A stretch of 64,000 nt of DNA. Source: Mesostigma viride (taxonomy: Eukaryota > Streptophyta > Mesostigmatophyceae > Mesostigmatales > Mesostigmataceae). Below are positions 20,701 to 43,303 of this stretch, one piece after another (the first letter of the stretch is position 1; every line of letters starts with the position of its first letter). A program made the position numbers and the translations under genes. Location: assembly GCA_009746045.1 (NCBI GenBank), contig RPFO01000050.1:4438539-4502538 (forward strand). Direction: 5' to 3'. Under the pieces are notes generated by a model, which was given only the letters and a program-made list of their open reading frames with translations, searched no databases and had not been told where the DNA came from.

Positions 20701-23700
20701 CGTGACGCGTTTGGGTAGTGTTGGGGTTTGTGACGCGTTTGGGTTGTGTTGGGGTTTGTTATGCGTTTGGGTAGTGTTGGGGTTTGTGACGCGTTTGGGT
20801 AGTGTTGGGGTTCGCGACGCGTTTGGGTAGTGTTAGGGTTTGTTATGCGTTTGGGTAGTGTTAGGGTTTGTTATGCGTTTGGGTAGTGTTGGGGTTCGTG
20901 ACGTGTTTGGGTAGTGTTGGGGTTTGTGACGCGTTTGGGTTGTGTTGGGGTTTGTTATGCGTTTGGGTAGTGTTGGGGTTCGCGACGCGTTTGGGTTGTG
21001 TTGGGGTTTGTAATGCGTTTGGGCTTCGACAGGGAAAAGGGATGCACTGCGACCCGGCAGATGGCTGTGGTAGTGCAGGCAGTGGTTACAGGACGAGGGG
21101 CATGCGCGGCGCTTATCTCCCATTACTTATGTTGGGTGTCTTGTCGGCCCATGAAAACTGTAGCGTAGCGATGTTCCTTAAGTGTGGTACCCCATTATAG
21201 CACACATGCAACGCCCCGTCATAGCGATACCCCGCCACAGCAAAACCCATCATGGCCGCGCTGGATGGATGGTGGGCCGCACGGGTATAACAAGCGATGC
21301 GCTGCAATAGGGGGCTGGCATCCCATGGGCGTATCTGTGTGCATATTCATATTCATATTCATATTTGTATTTGTATTTGTATTTGTATTTGTATTTGTGT
21401 TTGTGTTTGTGTTTGTGTTTGTGTTTGTGTTTGTGTTTGTGTTTGTGTTTGTGTTTGTGTTTGTGTTTGTGTTTGTGTTTGTGTTTGTGTTTGTGTTTGT
21501 GTTTGTGTTTGTGTTTGTGTTTGTGTTTGTGTTTGTGTTTGTGTTTGTGTTTGTGTTTGTGTTTGTGTTTGTGTTTGTGTTTGTGTTTGTGTTTGTGTTT
21601 GTGTTTGTGTTTGTGTTTGTGTTTGTGTTTGTGTTTGTGTTTGTGTTTGTGTTTGTGTTTGTGTTTGTGTTTGTGTTTGTGTTTGTGTTTGTGTTTGTGT
21701 TTGTGTTTGTGTTTGTGTTTGTGTTTGTGTTTGTGTTTGTGTTTGTGTTTGTGTTTGTGTTTGTGTTTGTGTTTGTGTTTGTGTTTGTGTTTGTGTTTGT
21801 GTTTGTGTTTGTGTTTGTGTTTGTGTTTGTGTTTGTGTTTGTGTTTGTGTTTGTGTTTGTGTTTGTGTTTGTGTTTGTGTTTGTGTTTGTGTTTGTGTTT
21901 GTGTTTGTGTTTGTGTTTGTGTTTGTGTTTGTGTTGGTGTTGGTGTTGGTGTTGGTGTTGGTGTTGGTGTTGGTGTTGGTGTTGGTGTTGGTGTTGGTGT
22001 TGGTGTTTGTGTTTGTGTTTGTGTTTGTGTTTGTGTTTGTGTTTGTGTTTGTGTTTGTGTTTGTGTTTGTGTTTGTGTTTGTGTTTGTGTTTGTGTTTGT
22101 GTTTGTGTTTGTGTTTGTGTTTGTGTTTGTGTTTGTGTTTGTGTTTGTGTTTGTGTTTGTGTTTGTGTTTGTGTTTGTGTTTGTGTTTGTGTTTGTGTTT
22201 GTGTTTGTGTTTGTGTTTGTGTTTGTGTTTGTGTTTGTGTTTGTGTTTGTGTTTGTGTTTGTGTTTGTGTTTGTGTTTGTGTTTGTGTTTGTGTTTGTGT
22301 TTGTGTTTGTGTTTGTGTTTGTGTTTGTGTTTGTGTTTGTGTTTGTGTTTGTGTTTGTGTTTGTGTTTGTGTTTGTGTTTGTGTTTGTGTTTGTGTTTGT
22401 GTTTGTGTTTGTGTTTGTTGTGTTTGTGTTTGTGTTTGTGTTTGTGTTTGTGTTTGTGTTTGTGTTTGTGTTTGTGTTGTGTTTGTGTTTGTGTTTGTGT
22501 TTGTGTTTGTGTTTGTGTTTGTGTTTGTGTTTGTGTTGGTGTTGGTGTTGGTGTTGGTGTTGGTGTTGGTGTTGGTGTTGGTGTTGGTGTTGGTGTTGGT
22601 GTTGGTGTTGGTGTTGGTGTTGGTGTTGGTGTTGGTGTTGGTGTTGGTGTTGGTGTTGGTGTTGGTGTTGGTGTTGGTGTTGGTGTTGGTGTTGGTGTTG
22701 GTGTTGGTGTTGGTGTTGGTGTTTGTGTTTGTGTTTGTGTTTGTGTTTGTGTTTGTGTTTGTGTTTGTGTTTGTGTTTGTGTTTGTGTTTGTGTTTGTGT
22801 TTGTGTTGGTGTTGGTGTTGGTGTTGGTGTTGGTGTTGGTGTTGGTGTTGGTGTTGGTGTTGGTGTTGGTGTTGGTGTTGGTGTTGGTGTTGGTGTTGGT
22901 GTTGGTGTTGGTGTTGGTGTTGGTGTTGGTGTTGGTGTTGGTGTTGGTGTTGGTGTTGGTGTTGGTGTTGGTGTTGGTGTTGGTGTTGGTGTTGGTGTTG
23001 GTGTTGGTGTTGGTGTTGGTGTTGGTGTTGGTGTTGGTGTTTGTGTTTGTGTTGTGTTGGTGTTTGGTGTTGGTGTTGGTGTTGGTGTTGGTGTTGGTGT
23101 TGGTGTTGGTGTTGGTGTTGGTGTTGGTGTTGGTGTTGGTGTTGGTGTTGGTGTTGGTGTTGGTGTTGGTGTTGTGTTTGTGTTTGTGTTTGTGTTTGTG
23201 TTTGTGTTTGTGTTTGTGTTTGTGTTTGTGTTTGTGTTTGTGTTTGTGTTTGTGTTTGTGTTTGTGTTTGTGTTTGTGTTTGTGTTTGTGTTTGTGTTTG
23301 TGTTTGTGTTTGTGTTTGTGTTTGTGTTTGTGTTTGTGTTTGTGTTTGTGTTTGTGTTTGTGTTTGTGTTTGTGTTTGTGTTTGTGTTTGTGTTTGTGTT
23401 TGTGTTTGTGTTTGTGTTTGTGTTTGTGTTTGTGTTTGTGTTTGTGTTTGTGTTTGTGTTTGTGTTTGTGTTTGTGTTTGTGTTTGTGTTTGTGTTTGTG
23501 TTTGTGTTTGTGTTTGTGTTTGTGTTTGTGTTTGTGTTTGTGTTTGTGTTTGTGTTTGTGTTTGTGTTTGTGTTTGTGTTTGTGTTTGTGTTTGTGTTTG
23601 TGTTTGTGTTTGTGTTTGTGTGCGTGTTTGTGTGCGTGTGCGTGTGCGTGTGCGTGTGCGTGTGCGTGTGCGTGTGCGTGTGCGTGTGCGTGTGCGTGTG

Positions 23701-26559
23701 CGTGTGCGTGTGCGTGTGCGTGTGCGTGTGCGTGTGCGTGTGCGTGTGCGTGTGCGTGTGCGTGTGCGTGTGCGTGTGCGTGTGCGTGTGCGTGTGCGTG
23801 TGCGTGTGCGTGTGCGTGTGCGTGTGCGTGTGCGTGTGCGTGTGCGTGTGCGTGTGCGTGTGCGTGTGCGTGTGCGTGTGCGTGTGCGTGTGCGTGTGCG
23901 TGTGCGTGTGCGTGTGCGTGTGCGTGTGCGTGTGCGTGTGCGTGTGCGTGTGCGTGTGGGTGTGCGTGTGCGTGTGCGTGTGCGTGTGCGTGTGCGTGTG
24001 CGTGTGCGTGTGCGTGTGCGTGTGCGTGTGCGTGTGCGTGTGCGTGTGCGTGTGCGTGTGCGTGTGCGTGTGCGTGTGCGTGTGCGTGTGCGTGTGCGTG
24101 TGCGTGTGCGTGTGCGTGTGCGTGTGCGTGTGCGTGTGCGTGTGCGTGTGCGTGTGCGTGTGCGTGTGCGTGTGCGTGTGCGTGTGCGTGTGCGTGTGCG
24201 TGTGCGTGTGCGTGTGCGTGTGCGTGTGCGTGTGCGTGTGCGTGTGCGTGTGCGTGTGCGTGTATGTGTATGTGTATTCGCATTCGCATTCACGTTCGTA
24301 CTGGTATTCGTGTCCGTATTCGTATTCGTATTCATATTGGTATTTGTGTCCGTATTCGTATCCGTATTCGTGTCCGCATTCGTGTCTGTATTTGTATTCG
24401 TATCCATATTCATGTCCGTATTCATATTCTCATGTCCGTATTCATATCCGTATTCGTATCCGTATTCTTGTCCGTATCCGTATTCATATTGGTATTCGTG
24501 TCCGTATTCGTATCCCTATTCGTATCCGTATTCGTGTCCGCATTCGTGTCTGTATTTGTATTTGTATCCATATTCATGTCCGTATTCATATTTTCATGTC
24601 CGTATTCATATCCGTATTCGTATCCGTGTTCGTGTCCGTATCCGTATTCATATTCGTGTCTGGGCCACTTCTCCACCACCTCATGTTGGTATGGGACTTG
24701 AATGGAGGGGCTGCATCCCCGCGCGCGCGTTTCCCTCTAATGCTTCCCTTTTCTGGTCTCAATGATGGGGCTGAAGTGACATGGTGTTGCTCGTGAACAT
24801 GACCTGGCATGCAGCTCTGCTGTCCCCCGACCCCCCTTTCTCCCCCCTCCCCCCTTTTTTCCTACCCTCCCCATCTCCACCTATGTACTTAACTCCCTCA
24901 CTCTCGTTTTTCCATGTGTGCACCATCTACGCGCCCTGGATCTGATTTCTCATTGTTCGCGCGATCCTCATCGCTTCGTGGAATAATATTTCCATGCGTG
25001 CTCGTAACAAACTTGCCCACGCGCCCATGTGCAGGGACATTGTGGCCCACATCCGGTCGGCCTACCCCTACTGGGATGCCAAGGGGGGCCGCGACCACAT
25101 TTTTGTCTCCTCCTCCGACTTTGGCGCGTGTGGCACTCACAAGCAGCACGCCCACATGCGTCTAGGGTTTGACCCGGACCTCGCCAGCGCCATCTGGCTA
25201 CACCATTTTGGGCTCACCGTAGCCGACATGGAGGGCTACGACACGGGCCCCTGCCACATCCCTGGCCAGGACATCGTGATCCCCTCCAACAGCTTCCTCT
25301 ACCAAATGCACGAATATAATGACATCCACAAGCCATTCTTCAAAAAGTCGCCGCTGTTCGAGCGGGGAGGGGTGGTCCGACCCGCCTACTGGGCCGACCC
25401 GGCCCACACGACGGGCGAGGCCCCCCGCCGGCATCCCCCCTTTGACACGCTGCTCTTCTTCGCGGGTGCCTCAGGCCTGCCCAACTCGGGGCCCCACTCA
25501 AACACTGGCATTCAGTACAGCCACAACGTGCGCCAGCGCGTCTTTCAGCTATTTGAGGGCGCGCCGGGCGTAGAGCTGTCGCGCAGGCGCGTGCCGGACT
25601 ACGCGGGCGCGCTGGTGGGTGCCAAGTTCTGCCTCGCGCCGTCGGGCGCTGGCTTTGGCATCCGCACGATCGATGCGGTGATCATGGGGTGCGTCCCGGT
25701 AATCGTTCAGGACAACGTGGAGCAACCGTTCGAGGACTACTTGCCCTACGAGAGGTGAGGGGGGGGGCTATCTGCCGTATGGGAGGTGACGGGGGGGGGG
25801 ACACTATCTGCCCAATGAGAGGTAAAGGAGGGGGGACTACCTGCTTTACAAGAGGTGAGCGGGGGGGACTACCTCCCTGTCCTACGAGAGATGAGGGGGG
25901 GAACTACCTGCCCTACGAGAGGTGAGGGGGAGGACTGCCTGCACGACGAGAGGTGAGGGGGGGGGACTACCTGCTGGAGGTGAAGGGGGGCGCTTAGTAC
26001 CTGCTGTGTGAGAGGTGGGGGATGGTTGGACTAGCTTCTGCGCACATGGGGGATAACTCTGGAGCCTTCTGGGCCCTGCATTTCTCACATGTGATGACAA
26101 GTGGCCGCTGCACCGTGCTCTGCGCAGCGCAGGTTACTTCCTGGAAAAATGTCGGCGATACACTTTAACCTGCGCTGTTCCAACTGTCACTTCATCAATG
26201 TCCTGGACACAACCTGAAAGCCATTTCCTGTGGGAGTCTGACGGTCGGATGTGGCCATGTTTACCCCCCCCCCCCCCCCCTTGAAGTACAGGTTCTCGGT
26301 CAGACTCAACGAGAGCCAGATCCCCTTCATGCTCGACATCCTTCGAGGCATTGATGACGCCACCTATGCGCGCATGCAGCGTGAATTAGAGTGCTGCATG
26401 ACGCGATTTATCTGGCGGGGGATGGGGCCATCCACGCCGCTGCCCCCGGGACCGGACGCCTTTGCCACGGTTATGGAGATTCTGAGGAATAGGGTGGAAG
26501 GGAGGCCCAACCAGCGGCTGGCGTCGTGCTGCTACCTCGATGATAGCCCGCAACGTTGA
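17789..26559 (+). CDS. EGF-exostosin family glycosyltransferase, type II membrane protein (3 exons)
   Basis: Exons 17789-19140, 25035-25754 and 26292-26559; both introns are GT-AG in phase 2, giving 779 aa. I chose the ATG at 17,789 because in-frame sequence upstream has only a GTG. A signal anchor ('[16 protein letters not shown]', about 18-38) suggests a Golgi type II protein. Two EGF-like modules follow ('[13 protein letters not shown]', about 60-80, and '[14 protein letters not shown]', about 265-285). The exostosin domain starts at '[12 protein letters not shown]' and continues over exon 2 ('[16 protein letters not shown]', '[18 protein letters not shown]', '[10 protein letters not shown]', '[13 protein letters not shown]'). 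Family role: transfer of sugars to glycoproteins or wall glycans; donor and acceptor cannot be read from sequence. Intron 1 (5.9 kb) is nearly all tandem repeat. A TGTAA at 26,907 is a possible poly(A) signal. Confidence 0.92.
19129..19203 (+). repeat. Duplicated exon end, exostosin exon 1
   Basis: The exon-1 end GGGTACCACAG|GTGCAGGGGGAG is followed about 55 bp later by GGGCTACGACAG|GTGAAGGGGAG, a second donor-like copy. Confidence 0.65.
19290..21025 (+). repeat. 28-bp minisatellite, about 62 copies
   Basis: The unit begins GTGTTGGGGTTTGTGACGCG and ends TTTGGGTA. Variants differ at a few fixed positions (GTGA/GCGA/GTAA; GGGG/AGGG). It lies in intron 1 of the exostosin gene. The array is open in some frames because 28 is not a multiple of 3 and the unit lacks stops there; this is not coding evidence. 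Confidence 0.95.
21366..23620 (+). repeat. (TTTGTG)n hexamer array with (TTGGTG)n blocks
   Basis: About 2.25 kb of TTTGTG hexamers with blocks of TTGGTG at about 21,933-22,004, 22,535-22,720, 22,806-23,040 and 23,066-23,173, and a few 3-bp slips (22,418, 22,476, 23,050, 23,173). In intron 1 of the exostosin gene; the intron RNA would be almost pure U/G. Confidence 0.97.
23621..24263 (+). repeat. (TGCGTG)n array, strictly alternating pyrimidine-purine
   Basis: About 640 bp of TGCGTG with a single GGGTGT variant at about 23,957. Every base alternates pyrimidine-purine apart from that variant. Confidence 0.97.
24264..24660 (+). repeat. Degenerate (TATTCG/TCCGTA) hexamer array
   Basis: Irregular six-base units such as TATTCG, TGTCCG and TATCCG, with a longer internal duplication (about 24,300-24,430 resembles 24,480-24,610). 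It looks like the older, mutated end of the neighbouring array. Confidence 0.9.
25736..26020 (+). repeat. Exon-2 end repeated nine times across its donor
   Basis: The exon-2 end GACTACTTGCCCTACGAGAG plus GTGAGG is followed by eight degenerate copies about 32 bp apart (for example at 25,770, 25,803, 25,836, 25,868, 25,901, 25,932, 25,965, 25,996). Most keep an AG|GTRANG-like donor. G-runs separate the copies. Confidence 0.9.
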
Positions 26560-27881: not shown

Positions 27882-28210
27882 TTTGAACACCGCATCCACT
27901 CCCTCTCCCTTCTTTGGACTGCCATGCAGAACAAGAAGAGGTGGCAGAAGATTGTCCAGCCTCACACGCCAGCCCCTGTGGGCAAGCCACCCCCCCCCAA
28001 GAGGAAGGGGCGTTTTGCTGAGTGGCGTAGTTAGGATTTTCTAGACTAGATAGCTTAGAGTTAGGTAAGGTCGATTACGCGGCTTCTCCCACCTCCACCC
28101 ACCCAACATGGAATATGTGCTACATGACCTCCCAACGGAGGCGCATGTTATAATTAATTAATTAATAGACACGTGACCGCGCATGTTATAATTTAATTTC
28201 ATTTCATTTA
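27882..28210 (+). mobile_element. 5'-truncated LINE with 14-bp TSD
   Basis: Flanked by ATCATACCTYGCAG (13 of 14 identical) at 27,868-27,881 and 28,211-28,224. The body encodes the last ~50 residues of ORF2 ('FEHRIHSLSLLWTAMQNK', 'HTPAPVGKPPPPKRKGRF'), matching the C-terminus of the ORF2 remnant that ends at 29,225. A 3' UTR, the stem-loop at 28,122-28,148 and (AATT)n/(ATTTC)n tail sequence follow. Confidence 0.85.
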
Positions 28211-28702: not shown

Positions 28703-28973
28703 ATGGAAAAGCCCTATCTTCTTGTATTATTGTCCTCCGCAACTCCCCCACAGGAGCGCGTGGCTATTTAGCTGATGCAGAATTTGATAAATCTGGGCAA
28801 AGTCGCCCAGTTAAAATATGAGTGCATAATAACACTAAGGCAAGCGCTCTCACATCTGCTCTCTCACACACTACTGTACTGCTTGTCTTTTGTTACTGGA
28901 CTCGTGCCTCAGCGGCTGTCTCTCTGTTACTGTGCACACGCCCGCTGAGTTACGACGGCTTATGGCTCCCACT

Positions 28974-29075
28974 TTGCTCAGTAGAATAGGTAGGGTTTTC
29001 TAGCTAGATAGAGAGTTAGATTAGCTTAGAGTTAGATTAGTTCGGTTTCGCGGCTTTGTCCCCCCCTCCATCCAG
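28974..29075 (+). mobile_element. LINE 3' UTR, left half, split by the 11-kb DNA element
   Basis: GTAGGGTTTTCTAGC... to ...CTCCATCCAG matches the 3' UTR of the other LINE copies (for example 28,033-28,110). It is preceded by ATGGCTCCCACT (28,962-28,973). Its continuation, including stem-loop and tail, lies at 43,234-43,303 and is followed by the same ATGGCTCCCACT (43,304-43,315). Confidence 0.8.
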
Positions 29076-29224
29076 AGGGGATTCATAAAAAAAAAAAATT
29101 AAATTAAATTATAACATGCCTCCGTGGGGAGGTCATGTAGCACATATTCCATGATGGATGGGGTGGAGGGAGCCGCGTAATCGAACTATACTAACGCTAG
29201 GCTATCTAGAAAATCCTAACTACA

Positions 29225-30472
29225 CTACTCATCAAAACGCCTCCTCCGCTTGGGGGGAGGTGGCTTGCCCACAGGGTCGGGCGTGTGCGCCTTGACAATC
29301 TTCTTCCACCGCGTCTTGTCCTGCATGACAGTCCAAAGACGGGAGAGAGAGTGTATGCGGTGCTCAAACTGGGCTGGGACCACTAGGTCGTCCAGCAACA
29401 TCTGAACGTAGTTGGTGACAGGTTTCCCTACCCTTTTGGGGATGTCCGCGGGGCCAGGCCAGGTCAGAATATGCCGCCCTGGCTGGCCAAGCCGCTGGGG
29501 GCCGGCCAGACCAAGGGTGGTGTCGACCTGGCTAGTGCGGGCAAGGTGTCCTACAAATGCTATCCTACGCTGCCTAATCTCGTCCGAAACACGAGGCATG
29601 CCATGATACAAAGACTCTGATGACGGACGCTCGGAAAAACCTACGTTAAGGACCTGCCGGAGCATCCTGTAAACTGTGCCGTCGAGCCGAGCTGCCAGTT
29701 TGGGTGGGAGGGTCCACGCCTCGGCGCCATACGTGAGCACCGTGAGGACGAGGACCTTGAAGAGCATGCGTTTGCGGTGCCCGTCCAGGCCCTTCGAGCG
29801 CCAGTAAGGTGTGAGCGAACGGAGCTTGGCCCAGGCGAGGGCGATGCGGGTGTCCACATCGTCGTCGGTGTCAGGAAGCCAGCTCCCCAACAGCTTGAAG
29901 CGGTCGCGGAACGGGACCTCCGTCCCGTCGAGCAGGCGCGGCAGCGGTGGTTTACTGGAGGCCCCTATCACCATCGCCTCCGTCTTGACACTAATCTCCA
30001 ACCCCACCGCCCGCGCCTCCAGGCCCAGGCAGTCCAGCCAGGTCTGAATGTGCTCGGGGCTCTCGATGAGGGTGGTATCATCCGCATAAATCAGGTCGGC
30101 AAGGCGGTAACCAGGTCTAACCCCGCCGTGCTCTTTCACGTTAAGGATGTCCAAGCCTGGCTCGAACCCCTTAAGAGCAGTAAAGCGCGCACGTGCCCGG
30201 CGCATGACGTGGTCCACGACAATAATGAACAGGTATGGGGACAGGACACAACCTTGCCACACCCCGTGGTGAAGGGGGAATGGTGGAGTGGTGCCCTCCG
30301 CAGTCCGCACTACTGCCTGTGAGCCCTCATACAGTCGGCGAATGGCAGCAAATATAGATACACGATGCTCGATGCAAAATGCGACTAGCTCCTCGATCCG
30401 ACAGCTATGGTCGTCATCTAGCAATGTGCGGGTGTTAAAAGTGGCAAGGGCCAAGGATGCCTGCTGGCCCAC
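29225..30472 (-). pseudogene. LINE ORF2 with in-frame deletion joining endonuclease start to RT
   Basis: Open for 415 codons, but an internal deletion removes most of two domains. The N-terminus reads as the start of an APE-type endonuclease ('LALATFNTRTLLDDDHSCRI', 'LVAFCIEHRVSIFA') and then jumps to the middle of the reverse transcriptase ('RRLYEGSQAVVRTAEG', 'GVWQGCVLSPYLFIIVVD', 'YADD' at 30,077-30,088). Thumb-like and C-terminal parts follow, ending in a basic tail 'PPPPKRRRRFDE'. The endonuclease catalytic residues and RT motif A are missing, so the product cannot retrotranspose by itself. The frame has no clear ATG at its left end; a different frame (30,774-30,418, 'MPRPNRRVKAMVVPVFRA') overlaps it and may be the original ORF2 start. 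Confidence 0.85.
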
Positions 30473-30945
30473 CAGGGGAGGACGACGATGGATGATGGGG
30501 GTGGATGCGGCGGGGGGTGGAGGTGGGGATGAAACGGAGGGGGAAGGGAAGCGGTAGAAATAGTGCTTTTCATCGCATTTATTTTGTCCTGCAAGCGTAG
30601 GATGCGAGCCTGCCGCTTGCTCGGGGTATTCGGGGTTGGGGCTGATTGCACAACGCCGAGGCGTAGGTAATCTAGCAAACGTTGGGTTTTACGAATCTGA
30701 CATTTGACAGATGAGGTTGTGGCCCGAAATACCGGCACCACCATGGCTTTCACCCGACGGTTAGGTCGAGGCATGGTAGTGGAACGGGACTGTTTAGAGG
30801 CTGTCCCCGAAGCCTGTTAGCCGCGAGCCGACGAGGAAGGTTGTCTACCTACTGTCTACCAACAGAGGCAGCACCCTTCTGGCTAGACACCTGACGAGAC
30901 TCCGCTCCGGGGGTGTTAATCGGAACACCTTTGATCCTCTGCCCA

Positions 30946-32022
30946 TCAAAGAATGCTGCAAAGGAGCCATCCTGAAGCAGACGCAGCCCGCTTACCCGGG
31001 GTCTCGTGCTGCTTGGTCTCCTGGACGATGGGGCTGTTCCACACCGCGCTCCTCGCCTTCAGTTGAGCCGGCGTGTAGTCCTCGTCGAGGCTGAAGTCAC
31101 CGCGTTGGAGCAGACGACGTGCTCCCAGCACGAGGCGTTTGTCGTGCATGGAGGCCATGGTGACGACGACCAGGCCCATAGGGCCTGGCAGCCGAATGGC
31201 ACGTTCAATGGCAACACGGTTCTGGAGCTGCAGCTTCCCCAGAAACTCTGGGCCGCGCAGCTCCTCGGCAAGTGAGTGTGCTGTCTCCTGTGCTGCCGCG
31301 CCTTTCTGGAAGCCTTTGATTACCATATTGCGTTGGCGTTGCTGCACTTCATTCTGGGTGACCGCAGCGGTAGCTGCAGACTTGGCCGCCTGTTGAACAA
31401 TGGTGGTCAATTGCTTGCCGGTGACATCGGCAAACGTGGTAGTTTTGGCAGGGGCTGCCATGGCTTTCTTCAGCTCCAGCATCGTCTCTTTCAGGACCTT
31501 AATGTCGCCCTGCACGGTCGTAAAAGACTGTGCAAGGTCCTGCAGCGGCACGGTAGTGTCGGTCGCGGGGGCTGGCCTGGCGATGGGTGTCGCCGGCAGC
31601 TCGACAAGTTCAGAGCAGCACGAAATAAGACATGCAAGACGGAGATCCTTGGGCTCCACTAAATCCCGAATGGTATCCGAAGGAGCGTCCATAACCTGGC
31701 CGGTGCGAGGGTGGCGAATCGGGGCGTTGTGTTCGTAGCGGAGCTGCAGCACGCGTCGCACCTCGGCGTCGCTGAAGCCGAGGAAGGCAGCGATGTCGTC
31801 CAGGCTCAAACGTGCGTCTGGCATGTAGAATGAGGAAGAAATGGAGTCCGGCAAGGAGGTTTCAACCGCTATCGGAGTTGCTTCCGAAGTCGCTGCCGAA
31901 GTCTTGGTGCGCTTGTTAGCGGCTTTCTTGGCCGCGGCATTGTCGGTGGCGATTTTGTTTGCAGCAAGTTTGTCATCGAGAGACTCGGCAGCAAGAACTG
32001 AAGACGATGCGGGGGCCTCCAT
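30946..32022 (-). CDS. L1-type ORF1 protein of LINE
   Basis: Predicted about 358 residues from the ATG at 32,022 (in-frame sequence upstream has no ATG). The N-terminus is Ala/Lys-rich ('KLAANKIATDNAAAKKAANK'). A helix-turn-helix-like segment ('LSLDDIAAFLGFSDAEVRRV') and a coiled-coil-like stretch ('GDIKVLKETMLELKKAM') follow, then an RRM-like core ('RQRNMVIKGFQKGAAAQE', 'AIRLPGPMGLVVVTMAS') and the C-terminal 'DEDYTPAQLKARSAVWNS'. This is the usual build of ORF1 proteins in L1-like LINEs, which package element RNA. The frame is intact. It is only distantly similar to the ORF1 at 3,337, so the two belong to different subfamilies. Confidence 0.8.
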   Translation of the reverse strand: MEAPASSSVLAAESLDDKLAANKIATDNAAAKKAANKRTKTSAATSEATPIAVETSLPDSISSSFYMPDARLSLDDIAAFLGFSDAEVRRVLQLRYEHNAPIRHPRTGQVMDAPSDTIRDLVEPKDLRLACLISCCSELVELPATPIARPAPATDTTVPLQDLAQSFTTVQGDIKVLKETMLELKKAMAAPAKTTTFADVTGKQLTTIVQQAAKSAATAAVTQNEVQQRQRNMVIKGFQKGAAAQETAHSLAEELRGPEFLGKLQLQNRVAIERAIRLPGPMGLVVVTMASMHDKRLVLGARRLLQRGDFSLDEDYTPAQLKARSAVWNSPIVQETKQHETPGKRAASASGWLLCSIL

Positions 32023-32391
32023 GGCTACGTTTAATAGCACCTAGACGATGGCAGGGGGCGCAGGCGCACGGCTCACGTGCGTGGTGCCGCCATAACGTGC
32101 AGAAAAATAGCGATATCTGCTGGGCAGGCCGCCGGCGATAACTTTCGAAATCCTGGGCGATGGCTGCCAAAAATTAGATCAGCGTGTTCGTCATCAAAAA
32201 GCGAGTCTGTAGCAATTTACCCGACCAAATTTCATGCCCGGAATCAAAAGTTATGAGCATTCTCGGCATCCATAGCTCGGCACACCGATTTTGGGTGCAA
32301 TGCATTCATGATGGGATTCATAAGTGTTTGCTCAATTTCACAAGTCTTCAAATGAGTAAAAAAAAAATCTTTCAGATCTGAGGGTACCTAA

Positions 32392-33800
32392 AGCTGGACT
32401 GTTGCAGGCAGCATGTAGACCATGAAAATAGACCACCCACAAAAATTGGGCTCATTCTGAGCTCAAATGGTGACATGTGACAGCATACATGTGCAGTTTT
32501 TCGTCATTTTCCCCCTTTACTTACATGAAACAAATATGAATAGTGGACAAATGAACTCATTTCAGGCTGGATTCTTGCAGGCAGCATGTAGACCATGAAA
32601 ATAGACCACCCACAAAAATTGGGCTCATTCTGAGCTCAAATGGTGACATGTGACAGCATACATGTGCAGTTTTTCGTCATTTTCCCCCTTTACTTACATG
32701 AAACAAATATGAATAGTGGACAAATGAACTCATTTCAGGCTGGATTCTTGCAGGCAGCATGTAGACCATGAAAATAGACCACCCACAAAAATTGGGCTCA
32801 TTCTGAGCTCAAATGGTGACATGTGACAGCATACATGTGCAGTTTTTCGTCATTTTCCCCCTTTTCTTACATGAAACAAATATGAATAGTGAACAAATGA
32901 ACTCATATCAGGCTGGATTCTTGCAGGCAGCATTTATACCATGAAAATAGACCACCCACAAAAATTGGGCTCATTCTGAGCTCAAATGGTGACATGTGAC
33001 AGCATACATGTGCAGTTTTTCGTCATTTTCCCCCTTTTCTTACATGAAACAAATATGAATAGTGAACAAATGAACTCATATCAGGCTGGATTCTTGCAGG
33101 CAGCATGTAGACCATGAAAATAGACCACCCACAAAAATTGGGCTCATTCTGAGCTCAAATGGTGACATGTGACAGCATACATGTGCAGTTTTTCGTCATT
33201 TTCCCCCTTTTCTTACATGAAACAAATATGAATAGTGGACAAATGAACTCATTTCAGGCTGGATTCTTGCAGGCAGCATGTAGACCATGAAAATAGACCA
33301 CCCACAAAAATTGGGCTCATTCTGAGCTCAAATGGTGACATGTGACAGCATACATGTGCAGTTTTTCGTCATTTTCCCCCTTTTCTTACATGAAACAAAT
33401 ATGAATAGTGAACAAATGAACTCATATCAGGCTGGATTCTTGCAGGCAGCATGTATACCATGAAAATAGACCACCCACAAAAATTGGGCTCATTCTGAGC
33501 TCAAATGGTGACATGTGACAGCATACATGTGCAGTTTTTCGTGATTTTCTCGGTTAACTTCCATGAAACAAATATGAATAGTGAACAAATGAACTCATTT
33601 CAGGCTGGATTCTTGCAGGCAGCATCTAGACCATGAAAATAGACCACCCACAAAAATTGGGCTCATTCTGAGCTCAAATGGTGACATGTGACAGCATACA
33701 TGTGCAGTTTTTCGTGATTTTCTCGGTTTAACTTCCATGAAACAAATATGAATAGTGAACAAATGAACTCATTTCAGGCTGGATTCTTGCAGGCAGCATT
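32392..33800 (+). repeat. 173-bp subterminal repeat array, left
   Basis: Units start at 32,392, 32,565, 32,738, 32,911, 33,084, 33,257, 33,430, 33,603 and 33,777 (partial). Each begins GGCTGGATTCTTGCAGGCAG or a near variant. Identity between units is very high; the last two units share a TCGGTTAACTTCC variant. The same unit is present in inverted orientation at 42,285-43,132. Confidence 0.95.
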
Positions 33801-34056
33801 TAGAAAATGCACATTGCCAGCTTTTACGTCATATCCCATTGAAAAAAAATAGATGAGCCATGAGCCATGAAACCTGTTCACCCAAATATGGTTTTATCCC
33901 ATTTGATATATGTTCTACCAATTGTAAGGACATGTAATAAACCTATGAACCAAGGTCATAAGACACGGAATGTGTTGATCACAAGGCTGCTAGCCGCAAA
34001 GCATGCACCGAGAAGGTAGGGCAGCCATGAAAAATTAAAAGCCACATGCGGCAAGG

Positions 34057-37000
34057 CTAGTCATCAGAGTCTGAATCAGGAATGATGGGAGGCCGGCGCT
34101 TGTGGCGCGGGGTGGCCTTGGCTTGCTTCATTGCCGTGGACCGCTGGGCGACCTGCTTGCGAATGCACTCAGTAATGTCCGCCTTCCCTCGCGCAATGCT
34201 CGCAGGTGGAAGATTTGGCAACTGCACACCGGGGCATGCGCAAAGCGCAGCCTGCACCTCATCAAATCCCACTATTTCATCGTCGCCATCGGAGTATAGC
34301 AGATGGGCCATGTCGTGCTCCTTACTAAAGGCCGTCACATGGCCATGATACCGCTTCTCCCCCGAGTTGGGGCCCGAAAATATCTTGCATACCAGGGTCC
34401 CCACCAACCATTCCGGCTCTGGCACGTCCATGACACGCGATTTGAAAAGTCCCACCGCCGTCTTCTCCGCCATCGCCGGGGTTCCGTACCCATCCCACTG
34501 AATCCAGTCGAGCGAGAGCCCAACAACAGCATCCTTCGTGTGCTGCGTCAATGTGCCACTGCTTGTCAAGCCCACCCGGCGCACCTTGCCCCCCCCGCAC
34601 GCCACGAAGACAAGACGATTGTGCTTGCCTTCACTGAAAATGTGTGGGTACCTGTCCTTGTGGCGGCGGGCAGGGGGAAATGGGCCGAGCTCGGGCTGAA
34701 GGGCGAAAACCGCGTTGTGTACGAGTGCGAGCCGTAGCACTCAAGTTCAACCACGGCGTCTGGCGATAAGTCGCCGGTGATGTTGCGGGCCACCGCGTAC
34801 AGCAAAGGAGTGAAAGGCATTAGGGGGCTGCACAGAAGATCGCAGCCGTCCTTTAGCCCCGGATGTTGACACATCACCGGCTTCCCCACCTCGATGCCCT
34901 CCCATGCTGCAGCGGATGCTTGCTTTAGCGCGACCGCTGCATCCTCTGCGCGTCGCACAGCAGCGGGCCGCCCCGCGTGGACAACGGGGTCAACCAGCGG
35001 CACGAAGCAACGAGCACCCTCCAATGCTAGACGCGTTTCCGCATCCAGGTCAGTGGTGGCACTCGGGCCTGCTCCGCTCTGATTGGGTCGCCGCAGCGCC
35101 TGGATTTCCGCTCTAGTTGGCCACTTGGGGGGCTGCCATTCAGCAGGCACGGTGGCCACACCAGTTGGAACAAGAGGCCAGAAGGCCTCCCACTTGTCCA
35201 TGCCCTCCTTCTTTAAATACTGCGCGTATCCTCCAGCCATCAAGCCCTTGATCTTTCTCTGGATTCCTGGCATCTTGCCCTCCAGGAAGTCCAAATCCAA
35301 GCCTGCTAGCGAGGGCACCGTCCCAAGTGCGCGCTCCACCTTCTCCCCGTCCACCACCAATACCCCATACAACTCCTTGTCGTCGTGTTCCCTAGTCCAC
35401 AGCGGGTGCTCGCCGTCGGCGCCGTCCGGCCTCCACTCGAGCAAGTCATGGAATTTATACCACAAGTAGACTTCCCCGTCCGCAGCACGCCGCAACATCA
35501 GATGGTGAACCTTGCAGGACTTTGTGTTTTTTTCTGCCTCCCCCGTCAGCGGGTTTTCCACCCAATCCGTTGACATCGCCCAGTTCGCGAGCTCCGGCTC
35601 TTTCAAGAGCATGAGCCACGCAGCGATGTTGTAGGCGGCGCCCATGGTCCAGCAGACCGTGCCTGCGGGCGTGGTGCGACCCAGGTCCGACGTGTCCGAA
35701 CGCCGAAACGCGGCAACGACCGCTTCCCCATACTCCTCCACTGTGTGCCACACCGCACCCTTCAGTGCGTTGGCCCCCAGCTTGAAGTACCCCCAAACTT
35801 GTCCGAATTTCTGATCGATGTCGAGATGGGTGTGCCCCCTTGGCAGGCGATGAATCTCGACACGCGCGAACAAGCCCGACGCCACCAGCCACCACGCCCA
35901 CAGCAGCACCGTGTCGTTGCGATTTTCAGATCCCCCGTCGAGTTGCAGGTGGAGGGTATCAGGCATCGGCAGCCCCTTCCCCTCCCAAGGCTTGGCCTTG
36001 ATGAGCTCACAGAGCACCCACATGAGCAGCGTGACGGTGATGCCCCCCGACTGATCTGCCACAGCCACCCAGGGGAGCACCTGGAAGAAACAAGTTTTCC
36101 ACCCGTGGGCTGCGACACAAAAGAGAGAGAAACGAAACAATGTGTTTATTCCGTTTTCCCAACCCTCGTGTTTCGCGCACATGTGCGGCACGTATGACTT
36201 GTTGCTGTCGATCTTATCGCACGCAAGGGATATGATCTGCCAATCCACACCCTCACGGCGGCGCTTCCAAAACTCGCGCCGCGCAACTCGCACGGCAGCC
36301 AGGTGGCGATTCCGCTCCAGGGTGATGCGCTCCAGCTGCTCCCGATTGGTTCCCGCTGCCGCACGGAGGGTACGGTACAGCACACAGTGCCCACAAATCC
36401 CCACATTGCGCCGGTTTTTCTGCATCTCTATTTTCAAGCCGTCGCTGTATTTGCCCTCGCAGACGTCGTTCCACAGAATGGTGAAGGCCGTGTACTTGTA
36501 CATCATTTTCGACTCCGTTGGGTTGCCCCATACCGCGATGCAATCCATACAATACTGCTGCTCCCACAGGTTTTTCAAGTTCTCTTTCTCTAGCAGCAAT
36601 ACATTGTCGCGTGTGGGATCGCGGCAGCCATTCGTCTGCACGTATGCCGCAATCCAGTCCACAGCCCATTCTTTACGCTGTTGCACAACACTCGGCTCGC
36701 GTTTGCCAGCGCCTGCATTGCACAAGGCACACATCACATGGACAAGTTTACCAACAGAGGCATGAAGAATATAAGTTATCCATGCAGGGTCATCCTCAAC
36801 ATGCACACGCGAGAGCAACATCAGGTATTAAATATAGTAATGAAACAACAATAAATGTGCCTGGCAAGCCAAAAAAAAATTTTTCCCCTCGCGGGGGGCG
36901 CTGGAAAACGGCAAAGGCAAAGCGGAGCCCGCCGCCTTTGGGCGGGCGTAGCGGAGCCTTCGCCGTTTTTTTTTGGCTTGCCAGGCACAGTAGCATTTCT

Positions 37001-37709
37001 CATACAGATTTCTCAAAACAGGGCAGCAATAAGGTGAATTGCATCCAAAAGGAGGAAGGGCAGAACGATAGCATGTCTTCTTACCGTGAGAGATTCCTGG
37101 TATTTCACACCCCACGGCGTCGAGGGTGTCCGCCTCCCAGACTTCGTGATCAAGCTTGCAGGCCGCCTTGGCGACGGCCATGTATGTCCTCCACGTGGAG
37201 TGGGCGATGCCAAACATGCGTCGTATCGCATGGTGGCACCCCTCCACGTGGTGCCGTCGCCCATGCACCAGCACCTCCGCCACAACCGGCACCGAGCATT
37301 CGTATTTCCCATGGTGTCGGCCAAACTCTGGCAAGGTGACTGTCACATGCTCCAGGCCGGCAGCGACAAAGAGCCCCACCACCAGCTGCCGGCGTTCATT
37401 GCAGGACAGCCCCCAATATTTGCTACGTGCCGCCTCCCATATTACAAAGGATGACAGGGGGCTCTGGGGATCTTGTATGCATCTATGTTTACAACACCGC
37501 CCGCGCAGCTCTGCCGCGATCACATGGGCATTACAGGCGTATTTCAGTACTGTTGTTGCTGATGATTTGAATCCTGCTGTGCGGCACCCACCACCTACAT
37601 CATCATCGTCATCACTGCCGATATCCAGATGGTCGACCTGATCGTCATGATCAACGTCTACTACGACGTTGTAGGCCTCGTACAAGGGGAATCGACGCTG
37701 CCTGGGCAT
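34057..37709 (-). CDS. DUF7869-family protein, putative DDE-type transposase
   Basis: Exon 1 37709-37085; intron 37084-36713 (GTAAGA...TGCAG, phase 1, holds a MITE); exon 2 from 36712. The hallmark block is in exon 2: 'LQLDGGSENRNDTVLL' followed by 'LPRGHTHLDIDQKFGQVW', the family's 'D-N/G-x-E-N' and 'GHTHxDID' signatures, arranged as acidic residues of an RNase-H/DDE fold might be (inferred). The N-terminal part has a His/Cys-rich segment ('VHGRRHHVEGCHHAIRRMFG'). The C-terminal part ('YHGHVTAFSKEHDMAHLLYS', then 'DGDDEIVGFDEV') looks Tudor-like. A 54-bp in-frame stretch ending TTTTGTGTCGCAG near 36,110 could be a tiny intron. Between about 34,740 and 34,600 the frame changes (an eight-G run lies there), so an indel or unseen splice is needed to reach the C-terminus at 34,057. 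Confidence 0.75.
36856..36989. mobile_element. 134-bp MITE in intron of the DUF7869 gene
   Basis: Near-perfect terminal inverted repeats: TGTGCCTGGCAAGCC followed by an A-run at the left, a T-run then GGCTTGCCAGGCACA at the right. The centre is GC-rich with its own inverted segments. No target duplication is obvious. Confidence 0.85.
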
Positions 37710-37727
37710 CAATTCCCCTTGTACGAG
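37677..37727 (-). promoter_or_regulatory. Hairpin enclosing the start codon
   Basis: 16-bp perfect arms (CTCGTACAAGGGGAAT at 37,677-37,692 and its complement at 37,712-37,727) with a 19-nt loop that contains the ATG at 37,709-37,707. Confidence 0.75.
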
Positions 37728-38040
37728 ACAGGCCCCTGGTGGTCGGGACGTAAGAGCAGCAACACCAAAACGGCAACGAACATTCTCCAGCAAGCTGCCT
37801 CATCCCCGGCTAAAACAGGGGGCCTGGGGCAAGGGTCTTCTTCAATTTCCAACGACATCCAATTCCAGCGCCCCCCACCATATTCGTCACGGCGCCTCCA
37901 ATAGTCTGAACCTTCACGACCGCCCATGGCAGCTCTCGCAATTATGTTGGCACGCCTCTCCCAATTATGCCTCTCCTGCCTCGTTTGTGGCTCGATCTTC
38001 CGCTGACTCAGCGCGGCGCATGAGAGTTCCATTCAGAATT

Positions 38041-38560
38041 CATTCACCGACCCCCAACACTGACCGTACAGCCAGAACAAACGAAAAGGTCTTGCATTCT
38101 CAATGAAAATGGGCTGTAACGGCATTCCATTGAGAATTCCATTCAGAACTCATTCACCGACCCCCAACACTGACCGTACAGCCTGAACTGGGCTGAACAT
38201 GCGAAAAGGACTTGCATTCTCAATGAAAATGGGCTGTTGCGGCATTCCATTGAGAATTCCATTGAGAACCCATTCACCGACCCCCAACACTGACCGTACA
38301 GCCTGAACTGGGCTGAACATGCAAAAAGGGCTTGCATTCTCAATGAAAATGGGCTGTTGCGGCATTCCATTGAGAATTCCATTGAGAACCCATTCACCGA
38401 CCCCCAACACTGACCGTACAGCCTGAACTGGGCTGAACATGCAAAAAGGACTTGCATTCTCAATGAAAATGGGCTGTTGCGGCATTCCATTGAGAATTCC
38501 ATTCAGAACTCATTCACCGACCCCCAACACTGACCGTACAACCTGAACTGGGCTGAACAT
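38041..38560. repeat. 120-bp tandem repeats between divergent genes
   Basis: The phrase CATTCACCGACCCCCAACAC recurs at 38,041, 38,151, 38,271, 38,391 and 38,511. The array lies between the starts of the DUF7869 gene (37,709, minus) and the PHD gene (38,812, plus), where a shared promoter is expected. Confidence 0.9.
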
Positions 38561-39473
38561 GCGAGAAACGAAGGACCATCCAAAAAGTGAAAAAGTGAAA
38601 CAGTCCGCGGCGTTGTCCGAGCCTCGCATGCAAATGGCATTTGAATGAACAAAGCGCAGTGACCGTCGTCTTTGCGCGCGCGCGGGTGGAGGTGCGTGCA
38701 CTAGTCTGCCAAGAAAACACTGCAGGGCATGCGCGCACGAACACAACGAGAACGTGCCAGCCTATGACGTCGTCGACGATGAAGTTCGTCGTCCGCTAAA
38801 TTGTAGGGGATATGGCGGAGTATCTGAGTGAAACAGAGAGGCTGCGGGCAGAACGACTGTGTTATGGACAAACTGCGGGTGTTTGCCTCTTAGGCCATGC
38901 CGATGGGGCAGACAACAACTGTCGGGGCCGAAATGGTGAAAGCTGCAACCTATTTGCTCATGCGATCTGCGTCAAGGCAATTGACGGGAATAAAAATGGG
39001 GAGGAGTGGTGGTGCCCAGGATGCCGTGACGTGGACCCCGGTGGCGTGAAAGTTGCCAATCTCCAAGCTTCGGGTTCGAACGGTCATCATGAGCTCGGCA
39101 CTCCCCCCCCGGCCCTGGGGTCCGCTGCTAACAAGTTTCTTCCAAACACCGACAAAGACCGGCGCATGTTGATGGATGATTCCGGATGCAAGGCCGTTGA
39201 CGACTTCGAGAAAGCACATCACAAGGCACCCGGCAGGAAGCTAGTGTTTCCTGGTACTACCGACGGCCATGCCACCCAGGAATCAGATGCACGCAGCAAG
39301 GAGGACGTGCCGTCAATTCCGGCTGATGCCAGCAAGGGCGTTCAATCGAGTGATGAAAAGTCGACCGCGGGGGTGGTGGACGATGACCTACCCAACTCCT
39401 CACACCCCCCCCACTCCGCGACTCCCCCCTGTGCAGGCGGTGCAGAACATGGAGACCACGCTAACCTTGACGA

Positions 39474-40827
39474 CAGTGATGATTCATACGCGATACGCGT
39501 CGTACGCGGCCCCAGGTGTATAATGTATAATACGCGGTGTATAATGTATTATACGCTGATCGTACGCTAACCGTTGAAAACCCCTTTTTTGGCATGATTT
39601 TGAGGGGTTTTCAACATTCTGAGCAACCAAGCATAGTCTGCTGGTGTTTTTCCATACCTTTTGCCTATACATGACATATATAGCATGACCTTTTGCATCG
39701 CCACCACTACCTAAATACAAGCTTAGTTTCTAACGGTCTAACTTGATAGTTTCTCTTCAAAATCGAGACAACATGCAACTAAGTATCAATACCAGTATCA
39801 ATGCACAACTCACTGGAAAGGATAATAAATTTGTAGAACTCAAGATATGCATGCACTATACATTGCCCCGAGGTGTCGATGACATTGAAGGGCGTCGATG
39901 GCATTGAAAGGCGCAAATGAATGCCTCGCACAGCTCCTCGTCCAGCTGCTCTTTGCTGAGCCCATAAGGTGCGGGCAAATTACCGTCGGTGGATTGGCCC
40001 TTTGATGATCCGCTTGGCCCAGCCGCCCCAGCAGCGCGCCCCGAGGTGTTGCTGGCATGAGGGGACACCCAGTTAGAGGCGTCGGTTTCTACAACGTCTG
40101 CAAGCCTGTCTTTAAGTGCCGCCCGCACATCAGCCTGCTTCTTGGCGTCACTAGTCGCCTTCCTCTTCCTGGTATTGCTTTCCTTCTCCGCCTGCTCGAC
40201 CAGCAGCCTGTAACGGAGTACTCCATCATCCATGTAGTAGTTATTTGTCTGCTGCCGATTCTTGAGGATGCGCTCTTTGCTAATGTATGTCCAGACAGTT
40301 TCGGATGTGGCCTCTTCTTCATCGGGCCGCACATCATCATCGTGTTCCATTGACTCACGTGTAAGCCATGCCTGGATGTCGATATGCTACGATCTAGGTG
40401 CCAGACGACCACGACGTTGCTGGCACACCTTATCACCTTCTTGATCCAGATAAATAGGTGTACGTTTATTTCCAAATATACTGTTGCTTAGGTATCACCC
40501 TCTTGATGATGAATCTTCAGCCTTCCCGCCTTCACCTTCCCGCCTTCACAAGTCACAATGAACGCGCTTTTAGCTTTAGTGCACTATACACTAGCTAGCT
40601 CATCACGCAATTATTTGTTCCTACTACAGGTCGGCGCGCCGCAGTCTAGGCAAGCAAATGCACCCACCTCGTAAGCCAAAAATATGCCAAAAAATACGCG
40701 AAAATACGCAAAAATACGCAAAAATACGCGTTTGCGTATGAAAGTACCCCATTTTCATACGCGCCGCGTGCGTATCGCGTATAATACGCTTCATACGGCG
40801 TATAATACGGCGTATGAATCATCACTG
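39474..40827. mobile_element. Inverted-repeat element with ATACGC subterminal motifs
   Basis: Ends share an 18-bp inverted repeat, CAGTGATGATTCATACGC (39,474-39,491; complement at 40,810-40,827). Inside both ends are many copies of (A/T)TACGC and TATAATACGC (39,485-39,565 and 40,690-40,815). No target duplication was found. It contains the minus-strand frame at 39,856-40,350. Confidence 0.55.
39856..40350 (-). CDS. Hypothetical protein within inverted-repeat element
   Basis: 164 residues from an ATG at 40,350. Acidic N-terminus ('EHDDDVRPDEEEATSE'), a central charged helical region ('VEQAEKESNTRKRKATSDAK'), a Gly/Ser/Ala linker and a short conserved-looking C-terminal segment ('YGLSKEQLDEELCEAFICAF'). 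I do not recognise a family. Its position inside the inverted-repeat element suggests it is that element's own gene or a piece of one, but it could also be an exon of the larger transposon. Confidence 0.45.
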   Translation of the reverse strand: MEHDDDVRPDEEEATSETVWTYISKERILKNRQQTNNYYMDDGVLRYRLLVEQAEKESNTRKRKATSDAKKQADVRAALKDRLADVVETDASNWVSPHASNTSGRAAGAAGPSGSSKGQSTDGNLPAPYGLSKEQLDEELCEAFICAFQCHRRPSMSSTPRGNV

Positions 40828-40951
40828 GCAGCAACTGCAGCAGCTGCTGCAACAACAGCAACACTATCGCCTCCCACTCCCTGCCGCTACAACGACTACA
40901 CGAGTAATTGACGGGGACGCCGAAGTAGCGCCCCTCGCGCAAGTGCAGCAA

Positions 40952-41626
40952 TTAATTAATAAGCACGTGACTGCGTCACGTGGGTGCCAATACAGAGTAA
41001 AGGAACCTTCAACCCTATATACACAGTGAGAAGGAGGGAGGGCGCCCTAGCTTCTCTCACTGCCGCAGGTGGGCAGGCCACAGAGCGCTCTCTCCACGGC
41101 ATGGTGCCGGGGCGCAACACTGTGGGTGCAATACAACCAGTGCAATACCATAGGTAGGCTGACGCATAGCTTATGCTACAAATGTGAGGTGGGCTCAAGA
41201 CGTCGGCTAATTAAGGCGCAAGCTGATGGCCACAAGGTGCCAGAGCTAATTGAAGGTACTATAACGCTGTGCGCTAATATCGTTTCAAGTGCTGTAATGC
41301 CTAAGCTATCCCATCATCGATTGCCCCCATCTAGACAACTAGCTGGAGTGCTCTATCCCGGGGAAGCCCGGGGGGGCTTCCACAGTTTCTTGTTGACGTA
41401 GAGGTCCCCGCCCCGCCAGTACACTTGGGGCTTCTCGGGGTTGGTCTTGTGGCGGATGTAGTCGGGCCACTGATCGCGGCGTTGCTGCTGCTGGGCTGGC
41501 GTCAGGTCGTCGTCAAGCGACCAGGAGGTGTCCACCAGCTTCTTGCGGCGAGAGAGGAACCGAACTCGGGCTGTGATGTCGCTGAAGGTGAGGACCACTG
41601 GAGGGGGCCCAGCCTTGGCCCGTGTT
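40952..41626 (-). mobile_element. ORF1-only LINE copy B (HAL1-like), 9-bp TSD
   Basis: Flanked by GTGCAGCAA at 40,943-40,951 and 41,627-41,635. On the minus strand it carries the last 81 codons of the same ORF1 as copy A (41,598-41,353), the same 3' UTR, the CACGTGAC/GTCACGTG hairpin and a (TTAA)n tail. The 5' truncation point equals position 3,747 of copy A. Three extra bases (GTT) lie between the truncation point and the duplication. It disrupts the PHD gene. Confidence 0.88.
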
Positions 41627-42255
41627 GTGCAGCAAATGCTGGCTCAGATGCAACTTCCCCAGGTATGTCCTTTCCTATTGTGATTTCTTTGAGTCAACAT
41701 AATCTGCCTTTGTGAATAGTTTGTTGGAGTATATAGGATATATTTGTTTGGTTTGTTGATTATTCCTTCATATACCGTGCCCTAAGGCATGCTGGCTTGA
41801 TGTGCTGGGTGGTGGTGTGCAGGTTGGTGGACGCCGGCTCCCATCCATTGACCCCTTCTCTGGCACGGTCTCTGTGGCGGTGGCTGCGCTCAACTCAATT
41901 GCGACACTGGCCATGTCTGGGAACACGACGCCCGTGCCACGATGGCGCCCGGTGACCACATGGGTGCCATCATCCGTGTCAGCTCCGCCCAACTATGGTG
42001 TCGGCCGCCCATTGCAGCAGTGGCCAAACTTCTCCAATGACTGGACTATGAGCAATGACTGGTTTACCAGCTAAGCTTATACTAGTTTCTGATGTATTAT
42101 TAAGTGAGCCAGTGCTTCTAGTAGAAGGTGATGTCTTAGTACTTATTGTATATTCATGCTGGACTGAAAGAGTACGTGGCGTGCCACTGGCAGCCGAGAC
42201 ATGTGCCTTGTCGATGGCCTGGGTTGCTCTTGTGCCATCCCATTTCATCTCAGAT

Positions 42256-42279
42256 TGAATCATGAAGTTTCATGATTCA
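42256..42279. repeat. 24-bp near-perfect palindrome
   Basis: TGAATCATGAA and its complement around a central GT, about 180 bp after the PHD gene stop. Confidence 0.8.
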
Positions 42280-42284
42280 GTTGA

Positions 42285-43132
42285 TGCTTGCAAGTTTCCA
42301 GCCTGACATGATCGATCGAGTTCATTTGGTCGCACAAAAATGTTTTATTCAAGAGAACAGTGGCAATGGCATCAAACTGCATTGTTTTCCTTTCATTTGT
42401 CACCTTTTGAGCTGTAAACAGTCTATTTTCATGGTATAAATGCTGCCTGCAAGAATCCAGCCTGATATGAGTTCATTTGTTCACTATTCATATTTGTTTC
42501 ATGTAAGAAAAGGGGGAAAATGACGAAAAACTGCACATGTATGCTGTCACATGTCACCATTTGAGCTCAGAATGAGCCCAATTTTTGTGGGTGGTCTATT
42601 TTCATGGTCTACATGCTGCCTGCAAGAATCCAGCCTGATATGAGTTCATTTGTTCACTATTCATATTTGTTTCATGTAAGAAAAGGGGGAAAATGACGAA
42701 AAACTGCACATGTATGCTGTCACATGTCACCATTTGAGCTCAAAATGAGCCCAATTTTTGTGGGTGGTCTATTTTCATGGTCTAGATGCTGCCTGCAAGA
42801 ACCCAGCCTGATATGAGTTCATTTGTCCACTGTTCATATTTGTTTCATGTAAGAAAAGGGGGAAAATGACGAAAAACTGCACATGTATGCTGTCACATGT
42901 CACCATTTGAGCTCAGAATGAGCCCAATTTTTGTGGGTGGTCTATTTTCATGGTCTAAATGCTGCCTGCAAGAATCCAGCCTGAAATGAGTTCATTTGTC
43001 CACTATTCATATTTGTTTCATGTAAGTAAAGGGGGAAAATGACGAAAAACTGCACATGTATGCTGTCACATGTCACCATTTGAGCTCAGAATGAGCCCAA
43101 TTTTTGTGGGTGGTCTATTTTCATGGTCTGAA
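42285..43132 (-). repeat. 173-bp subterminal repeat array, right (inverted)
   Basis: Unit boundaries at 42,301, 42,460, 42,633, 42,806 and 42,979 (first spacing 159, the rest 173). Same sequence as the left array on the opposite strand. The two outermost 30-bp inverted repeats lie just outside the arrays. Confidence 0.93.
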
Positions 43133-43233
43133 GGCTGGATGACCCCTGCTTTATTGACAAATATAAGGATTTAATCACATGTGGAAAAATTGAGTAAAAT
43201 TTATGAAATTGAGCAAACACTTATGAATCCCCT

Positions 43234-43303
43234 CCCATCCACGGGAATATGTGCTACATGATCTCCCAACGGAGTCATGTTATAATTTAATTTTTAATTT
43301 TTA
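43234..43303 (+). mobile_element. LINE 3' end, right half, with stem-loop and tail
   Basis: Continuation of the copy begun at 28,974: GGGAATATGTGCTACATG..., the stem-loop at 43,256-43,280, TTATAATTTAATTTTTAATTT tail-like sequence, then the 12-bp duplication ATGGCTCCCACT (43,304-43,315). Confidence 0.82.

Follow-up and report, generated by a model that had tools for sequence, protein, structure and literature searches.

A DNA transposon family of Mesostigma viride with a DUF7869 protein as its very probable transposase

A 64,000-nucleotide stretch of the Mesostigma viride genome (assembly GCA_009746045.1, contig RPFO01000050.1, positions 4,438,539 to 4,502,538 of the forward strand; hereafter the window, in whose coordinates features are given) contains a segment that splits the 3′ untranslated region (UTR) of a long interspersed nuclear element (LINE) and encodes a protein with the orphan domain DUF7869 (Pfam PF25273). 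This arrangement raises the question of whether the segment is a mobile element and, if so, which protein moves it. We consider the window to hold one copy of a recently moved DNA transposon family of M. viride, with the DUF7869 protein as its transposase, and put the probability of this reading at roughly 0.87. The family has 31-bp inverted ends and 3-bp target duplications, and the genome contains many nearly identical copies of it, along with shortened derivatives that retain these ends and empty target sites.

Terminal repeats, target duplications and copies of the element

The element spans 29075..43234 and is delimited by its 31-bp terminal inverted repeat, a flanking duplication and copies elsewhere with the same ends. 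It lies within the 3′ UTR of a LINE (LINE B), whose own 12-bp duplication, ATGGCTCCCACT, is present at 28962 and 43304, on both outer sides as the initial annotation had described. The nesting on which that annotation based the element's edges holds as well, but the boundary begins one base earlier than it proposed (at 29075), and the inverted repeats that it gave as 30 bp are perfect over 31 bp. As it stands the element measures 14.2 kb, because a second LINE of 3.2 kb (LINE A) sits inside its left terminal repeat. Without LINE A and one duplicate of LINE A's target duplication the element is 10,925 bp long, in agreement with the ~11 kb first estimated.

The left terminal repeat is thus found in two parts, an outer one cut by LINE A (29075..29088, plus strand) and a remainder at 32313..32340 (plus strand), the latter beginning with the right copy (32313-32323) of the 11-bp LINE A target duplication, GGGATTCATAA, whose left copy is at 29078..29088. 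Once LINE A is left out, this repeat and the one at the right end (43204..43234, minus strand) are identical over 31 bp and form a perfect inverted repeat. The sequence GAGGGGATTCATAA occurs at 29075-29088 (+) and 43221-43234 (−), and shuffled sequences average 0.18 matches at two or fewer mismatches. Inside the ends lie the inverted subterminal arrays of a 173-bp unit that had been reported for this locus, with 8.2 copies on the left (32393..33804) and 4.1 copies on the right (42421..43137). The two arrays have opposite orientations and are complementary up to 98% over 717 nt.

The genome of M. viride (439.9 Mb in 2243 contigs) contains further copies of these ends. A 435-bp query taken from the right end gives at least 40 full-query matches at 99–100% identity, the window's included (40 of 324 candidates were scored). 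Recurrence of the end in the genome had been set beforehand as a test of the transposon proposal; 28 bases of the terminal repeat are found at 280 places (143 + 137) at two or fewer mismatches, and the reversed-pattern control at none (0 + 0). The first 10 right-end matches other than the window were fetched as 20-kb stretches. Both ends are present in nine of them, 5.7 to 15.0 kb apart, and all nine are flanked by an exact 3-bp duplication; for the tenth, C1518, a second end was not found within its 20-kb stretch. A second sample comprised eight further convergent pairs less than 12 kb apart, drawn from 100 listed of the 280 end places, and seven of these show an exact 3-bp duplication. The remaining pair, C2, is a nested compound in which ends belonging to nested copies were paired, hence its lack of a duplication.

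An exact 3-bp duplication accordingly flanks 16 of the 17 end pairs outside the window, and comparison of the ends, as the initial annotation had envisaged, defines the target duplication as 3 bp. The window's own duplication can be read either as 7 bp (CCATCCA, 29068-29074 on the left) or as 3 bp (CCA, 29072..29074 and 43235..43237). The 7-bp reading was dropped and the duplication taken as 3 bp because 16 other end pairs show that length. The 17 duplications, the window's counted, are GTA, ATG, ACT, TGT, GCT, ACA, TGC, ATG, CCA, CCA, ACA, TAT, TTT, TCG, AAC, ATA and TCA, among which no common motif is evident.

Empty target sites, also foreseen, were recovered as matches spanning the junction for five of the 18 joined sites (the 17 pairs and the window); these are paralogous repeat copies rather than the same locus in another strain. 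Their identities are 100% over 57 bp for C25, 98% for C1579b, 98% for C1391, 96% for C1043 and 86% for the window. In the case of C25 the element is inserted into a LINE coding region, and the empty version holds one ACA; the same empty site is also matched at 100% over 48 bp in the window's own LINE A (30304-30351).

Five full-length copies are 99.90–99.97% identical to the window over 34000-36870, the region of the DUF7869 gene. Others are internally reduced: no DUF7869 match remains in C1956, C1965 or C2133a, and only parts of it in C1613, yet both ends are kept in all four. Elsewhere, a nested or compound insertion at C2:4797725-4797790 (L057) has two of the family's terminal repeats abutting, with nothing or next to nothing separating them.

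The DUF7869 gene and its predicted fold

The DUF7869 gene lies on the minus strand. Exon 2 to the stop codon (34566..36712) encodes the predicted DDD transposase and matches PF25273 with an E value of 2.3e-14 (53.9 bits against a curated cut-off of 26). PF25273 is the sole Pfam family above cut-off in the six unspliced frames of 33800-42420. An intron with GTAAG...CAG borders (36713..37084) separates exon 2 from exon 1 of the annotated model (37085..37217), whose frame is open to 37799 with a possible earlier start at ~37709. The gene model, P0001, corresponds to EukProt Mesvir1 Mv26525-RA.1 and was the only match to a search with the window protein. It differs from the window frame at one residue within positions 61-759 and agrees with both of the exon-1 pieces that were tested.

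A search with an approximate bait sequence returned 291 proteins, of which 120 were listed. All 120 listed relatives carry PF25273, and many are from molluscs, amphioxus, echinoderms and corals. P0001 was aligned with 92 of them, the 28 left out being nearly all short, and its identity to the other aligned sequences is 17–23%. D303 and D344 are invariant in all 93 rows, and D210 is found in all 89 rows that have a letter at this position, the other four being gapped there. Between the second and third acids lie 41 residues in 89 rows, 40 in three (including P0001) and 56 in one. D213 and D342 are each conserved in 86 of 93 rows as well, and for this reason the choice of D210, D303 and D344 as the triad rests on the structure model.

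In the predicted model, D210 ends a strand at 205-211, D303 ends a strand at 297-303, and D344 is in a helix at 341-356 that follows the fifth strand. The RNase H/integrase fold has the order beta1-beta2-beta3-alpha-beta4-alpha-beta5-alpha, and the predicted order of strands and helices in DUF7869 is of this topology. Three acidic residues in an RNase H fold, which the initial annotation had expected of a DUF7869 transposase, are thus present in the model as conserved positions; their codons are at 36216..36218 (D210), 35937..35939 (D303) and 35814..35816 (D344, within GHTHLDID), all on the minus strand. The whole-protein model has a mean predicted local distance difference test score (pLDDT) of 70.3 and a predicted template modelling score (pTM) of 0.69. 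By ten-residue block over 201-360, pLDDT ranges from 67 to 94 and reaches at least 86 in eight of 16 blocks, with 93, 77 and 84 for the blocks of D210, D303 and D344. In a structural alignment the best 50 rows listed are all DDE integrases or transposases, in a list from which absence does not exclude other transposase families. Foldseek alone, however, gave no significant match for the predicted DUF7869 structure. On the predicted fold and the conserved acids, the DUF7869 protein is very probably the transposase of the element.

A 254-residue fragment from the window, used as a query against proteins, found no match, possibly on account of a length limit of the search, and PDB sequences contain no match to the DUF7869 open reading frame (ORF) at E 10. 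In viral contigs, DUF7869 peptide patterns matched nothing, and none of 10 stretches (eight with the GHTH motif and two with the terminal repeat) is a relative; an alignment-derived pattern matched 70 stretches in the same collection, again with no relative among them. Phage records gave no match. Among genome contigs, two of 46 pattern-matching stretches are DUF7869 relatives (L011 2584-3429 and L012 5679-6254), which carry QIDGG(P/S)EN and GHTHEDID and come from contigs in bins called Bacteroidetes. Both are probably eukaryotic contamination, as their interrupted frames and a gag-like ORF in L011 suggest. No inverted repeat was found flanking either match on these contigs of only 5–6 kb, and owing to that length the two have no bearing on the transposase assignment either way.

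It is most likely that the DUF7869 protein would pair the two ends of the element and cut at GAGGGG, with the D210/D303/D344 triad coordinating two metal ions at an active site of RNase H type. The 3′ ends would then be joined to target strands 3 bp apart, and host repair would make the duplications. The transposase probably binds the pair of 173-bp arrays within the ends, although this is a guess.

Several peculiarities of the gene can be recorded here. The intron contains a stem-loop with long inverted arms at 36878-36966 (GGCTTGCCAGGCA...). Its inside has one orientation in the window and in C1912 and the opposite one in C1391, C1518, C1579 and C1469, and apparently inverts between the arms. 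The stem-loop was at one point taken for an insertion private to the window copy, an idea that was dropped since four of the five other copies with the site carry it in opposite orientation. A short inverted repeat (TCGTACAAGGGGAAT / ATTCCCCTTGTACGA), spotted by eye, surrounds the possible start of the longer frame at ~37675-37730. In C1518 the DUF7869 gene has undergone a very long in-frame tandem expansion in 66-bp steps, giving an open frame of 4243 amino acids that may be an assembly fault (L025-L026).

The PHD-like gene and other features of the window

The divergent gene pair of the initial annotation is borne out for DUF7869 and less so for its partner, whose PHD assignment is weak and whose gene is broken in this copy. 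The 5′ part of the PHD-like gene is at 38800..39473 and the 3′ part at 41627..42074, both on the plus strand, the latter with a proposed intron before 41823 and ending in NDWFTS followed by a stop. The cysteine-rich stretch scores 12.6 bits (E 0.15) against PHD (PF00628) in the window ORF and 10.8 bits (E 0.54) in a longer ORF from another copy, both below the cut-off of 24. PDB sequences contain no match to the PHD-like ORF at E 0.01, and a UvrD_C match (E 0.0017) in the protein was disregarded, as it falls in the glutamine-rich part.

C1469 has an uninterrupted PHD-like frame of 715 amino acids, the second half of which is glutamine-rich. We propose that the C1469 gene continues with an intron and a last exon resembling window 41823-42074. 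The segment that interrupts the window's gene (39474..41626) is largely foreign; it contains a LINE ORF1-like frame at 41353-41643, and the other copies that were checked have no more of it than 40828-40951. Within the broken gene, 39467-39491 and 40810-40834 form 25-nt inverted arms that are 88% complementary and could be the ends of a nested element. A further ORF, at 34057..34740 on the minus strand, overlaps the end of the DUF7869 frame and has a weak PTM/DIR17-like Tudor match (PF21743, E 4.8e-4, below the curated cut-off). The divergent PHD-like protein, together with this possible Tudor part, may by way of a guess be accessory to transposition, perhaps in reading chromatin. Between the two divergent genes is a tandem array of a 120-bp unit (38075..38564).

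LINE A (29089..32312, minus strand) encodes a reverse transcriptase ORF at 30688-29225 (RVT_1, E 5.8e-9) and has a 3′ UTR like that of LINE B; an ORF at 32040-30946, also on the minus strand, is presumed by position only to be its ORF1. The same LINE 3′ UTR is found in three copies within ~15 kb, at 28111 (+), 29133 (−) and 43245 (+), two of which take part in the nesting. Farther upstream, 19288-24657 is a region of ~5.4 kb composed mostly of tandem arrays, namely a 28-bp unit repeated 62 times followed by TTTGTG × 379 and GTGTGC × 108.

Alternative explanations and comparison with known transposons

The element could be a true transposon that is mobilized by a known type of transposase, from an established superfamily and with its gene elsewhere, with DUF7869 as a passenger or accessory protein. 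Large transposons are known to carry passenger genes, and three of the ten fetched copies have both ends and no DUF7869 match, although deletion derivatives would look alike. This explanation is improbable given that DUF7869 has conserved acids of its own and a predicted integrase topology, and that the six unspliced frames contain no other transposase domain above cut-off. The DUF7869 frame is moreover open in six of the ten fetched copies, as it is in the window, against one in ten (C1469) for the PHD-like frame. Far less credible still is a host gene trapped between unrelated repeats. DUF7869 is indeed annotated as an ordinary gene model, but a near-identical DUF7869 gene is found in six of the ten fetched copies on other contigs, and five of the six have both ends and their own 3-bp duplication.

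A different issue, compatible with the DUF7869 protein being the transposase and concerning novelty alone, is whether the element belongs to a superfamily that already has a name (such as Zator or Academ, and above all Novosib or Sola) and whose transposase was never linked to DUF7869. We regard this as possible but doubtful. PMC10045372 describes 3-bp duplications for Zator and duplications of 3–4 bp, together with a nuclease, for AcademX. It also counts 21 eukaryotic DDD/E superfamilies from Repbase, and the comparison here was made by Pfam and by descriptions. Against such membership, the element has no match to another Pfam transposase family, no XPG domain and no C/DxxH between the second and third acids; in addition, full-text searches of an open-access library, most subscription journals being outside it, found no mention of DUF7869, PF25273 or GHTHEDID. 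On balance we lean towards DUF7869 representing a eukaryotic superfamily of DDD transposons that has not been described before and that spans green algae as well as molluscs, corals, echinoderms and amphioxus, with the 3-bp duplication established for the Mesostigma family only. If this is true, the hundreds of animal DUF7869 proteins labelled "uncharacterized" would be either its transposases or domesticated descendants of them. A transposase role would give this widespread orphan domain a testable function. The near-identical and apparently recent Mesostigma family, with its defined ends, is directly assayable, and could be one more lineage beside the superfamilies counted in that source.

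Among the superfamilies with short duplications, EnSpm/CACTA has CACTA-type ends and a 3-bp duplication; the length fits, but the ends here are GAGGGG and the EnSpm/CACTA transposase has no Pfam match in the element. Harbinger/PHIS elements have a TNA-type 3-bp target, and only one of the 17 duplications here is TNA, again with no Pfam match. AcademX carries an XPG nuclease, and although its duplication length is compatible, the six unspliced frames of 33800-42420 contain no XPG domain. The 3-bp length also fits Zator, whose transposase is related to ISAzo13; Pfam profiles gave no match of that type at E 0.5, and a more distant relationship to Zator is possible. The transposases of P, Dada, hAT, MuDR and Kolobok are likewise of RNase H type. 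According to PMC3706591, however, Dada duplicates 6–7 bp of its target and hAT, Kolobok, P and MuDR duplicate 4 to 10 bp, as opposed to 3 bp here, and a C/DxxH motif is common to all five. This motif was not found between D303 and D344 of P0001, and its absence together with the duplication length (3 versus 6–7 bp) rules out Dada, as that source describes it. Retroviral integrase and the transposase domains of Mos1 and SETMAR/Metnase, at 5–15% identity in the aligned rows, show a likeness of fold only and belong to different element types. The element most resembles class II DDE/D cut-and-paste transposons in general, with which it shares inverted ends, duplications of fixed length, deletion derivatives and a predicted integrase-type fold with three acids. 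It differs from them in a putative transposase of PF25273, outside the Pfam transposase families, in the 40 or 41 residues between the second and third acids, and in the paired inverted 173-bp arrays inside its ends.

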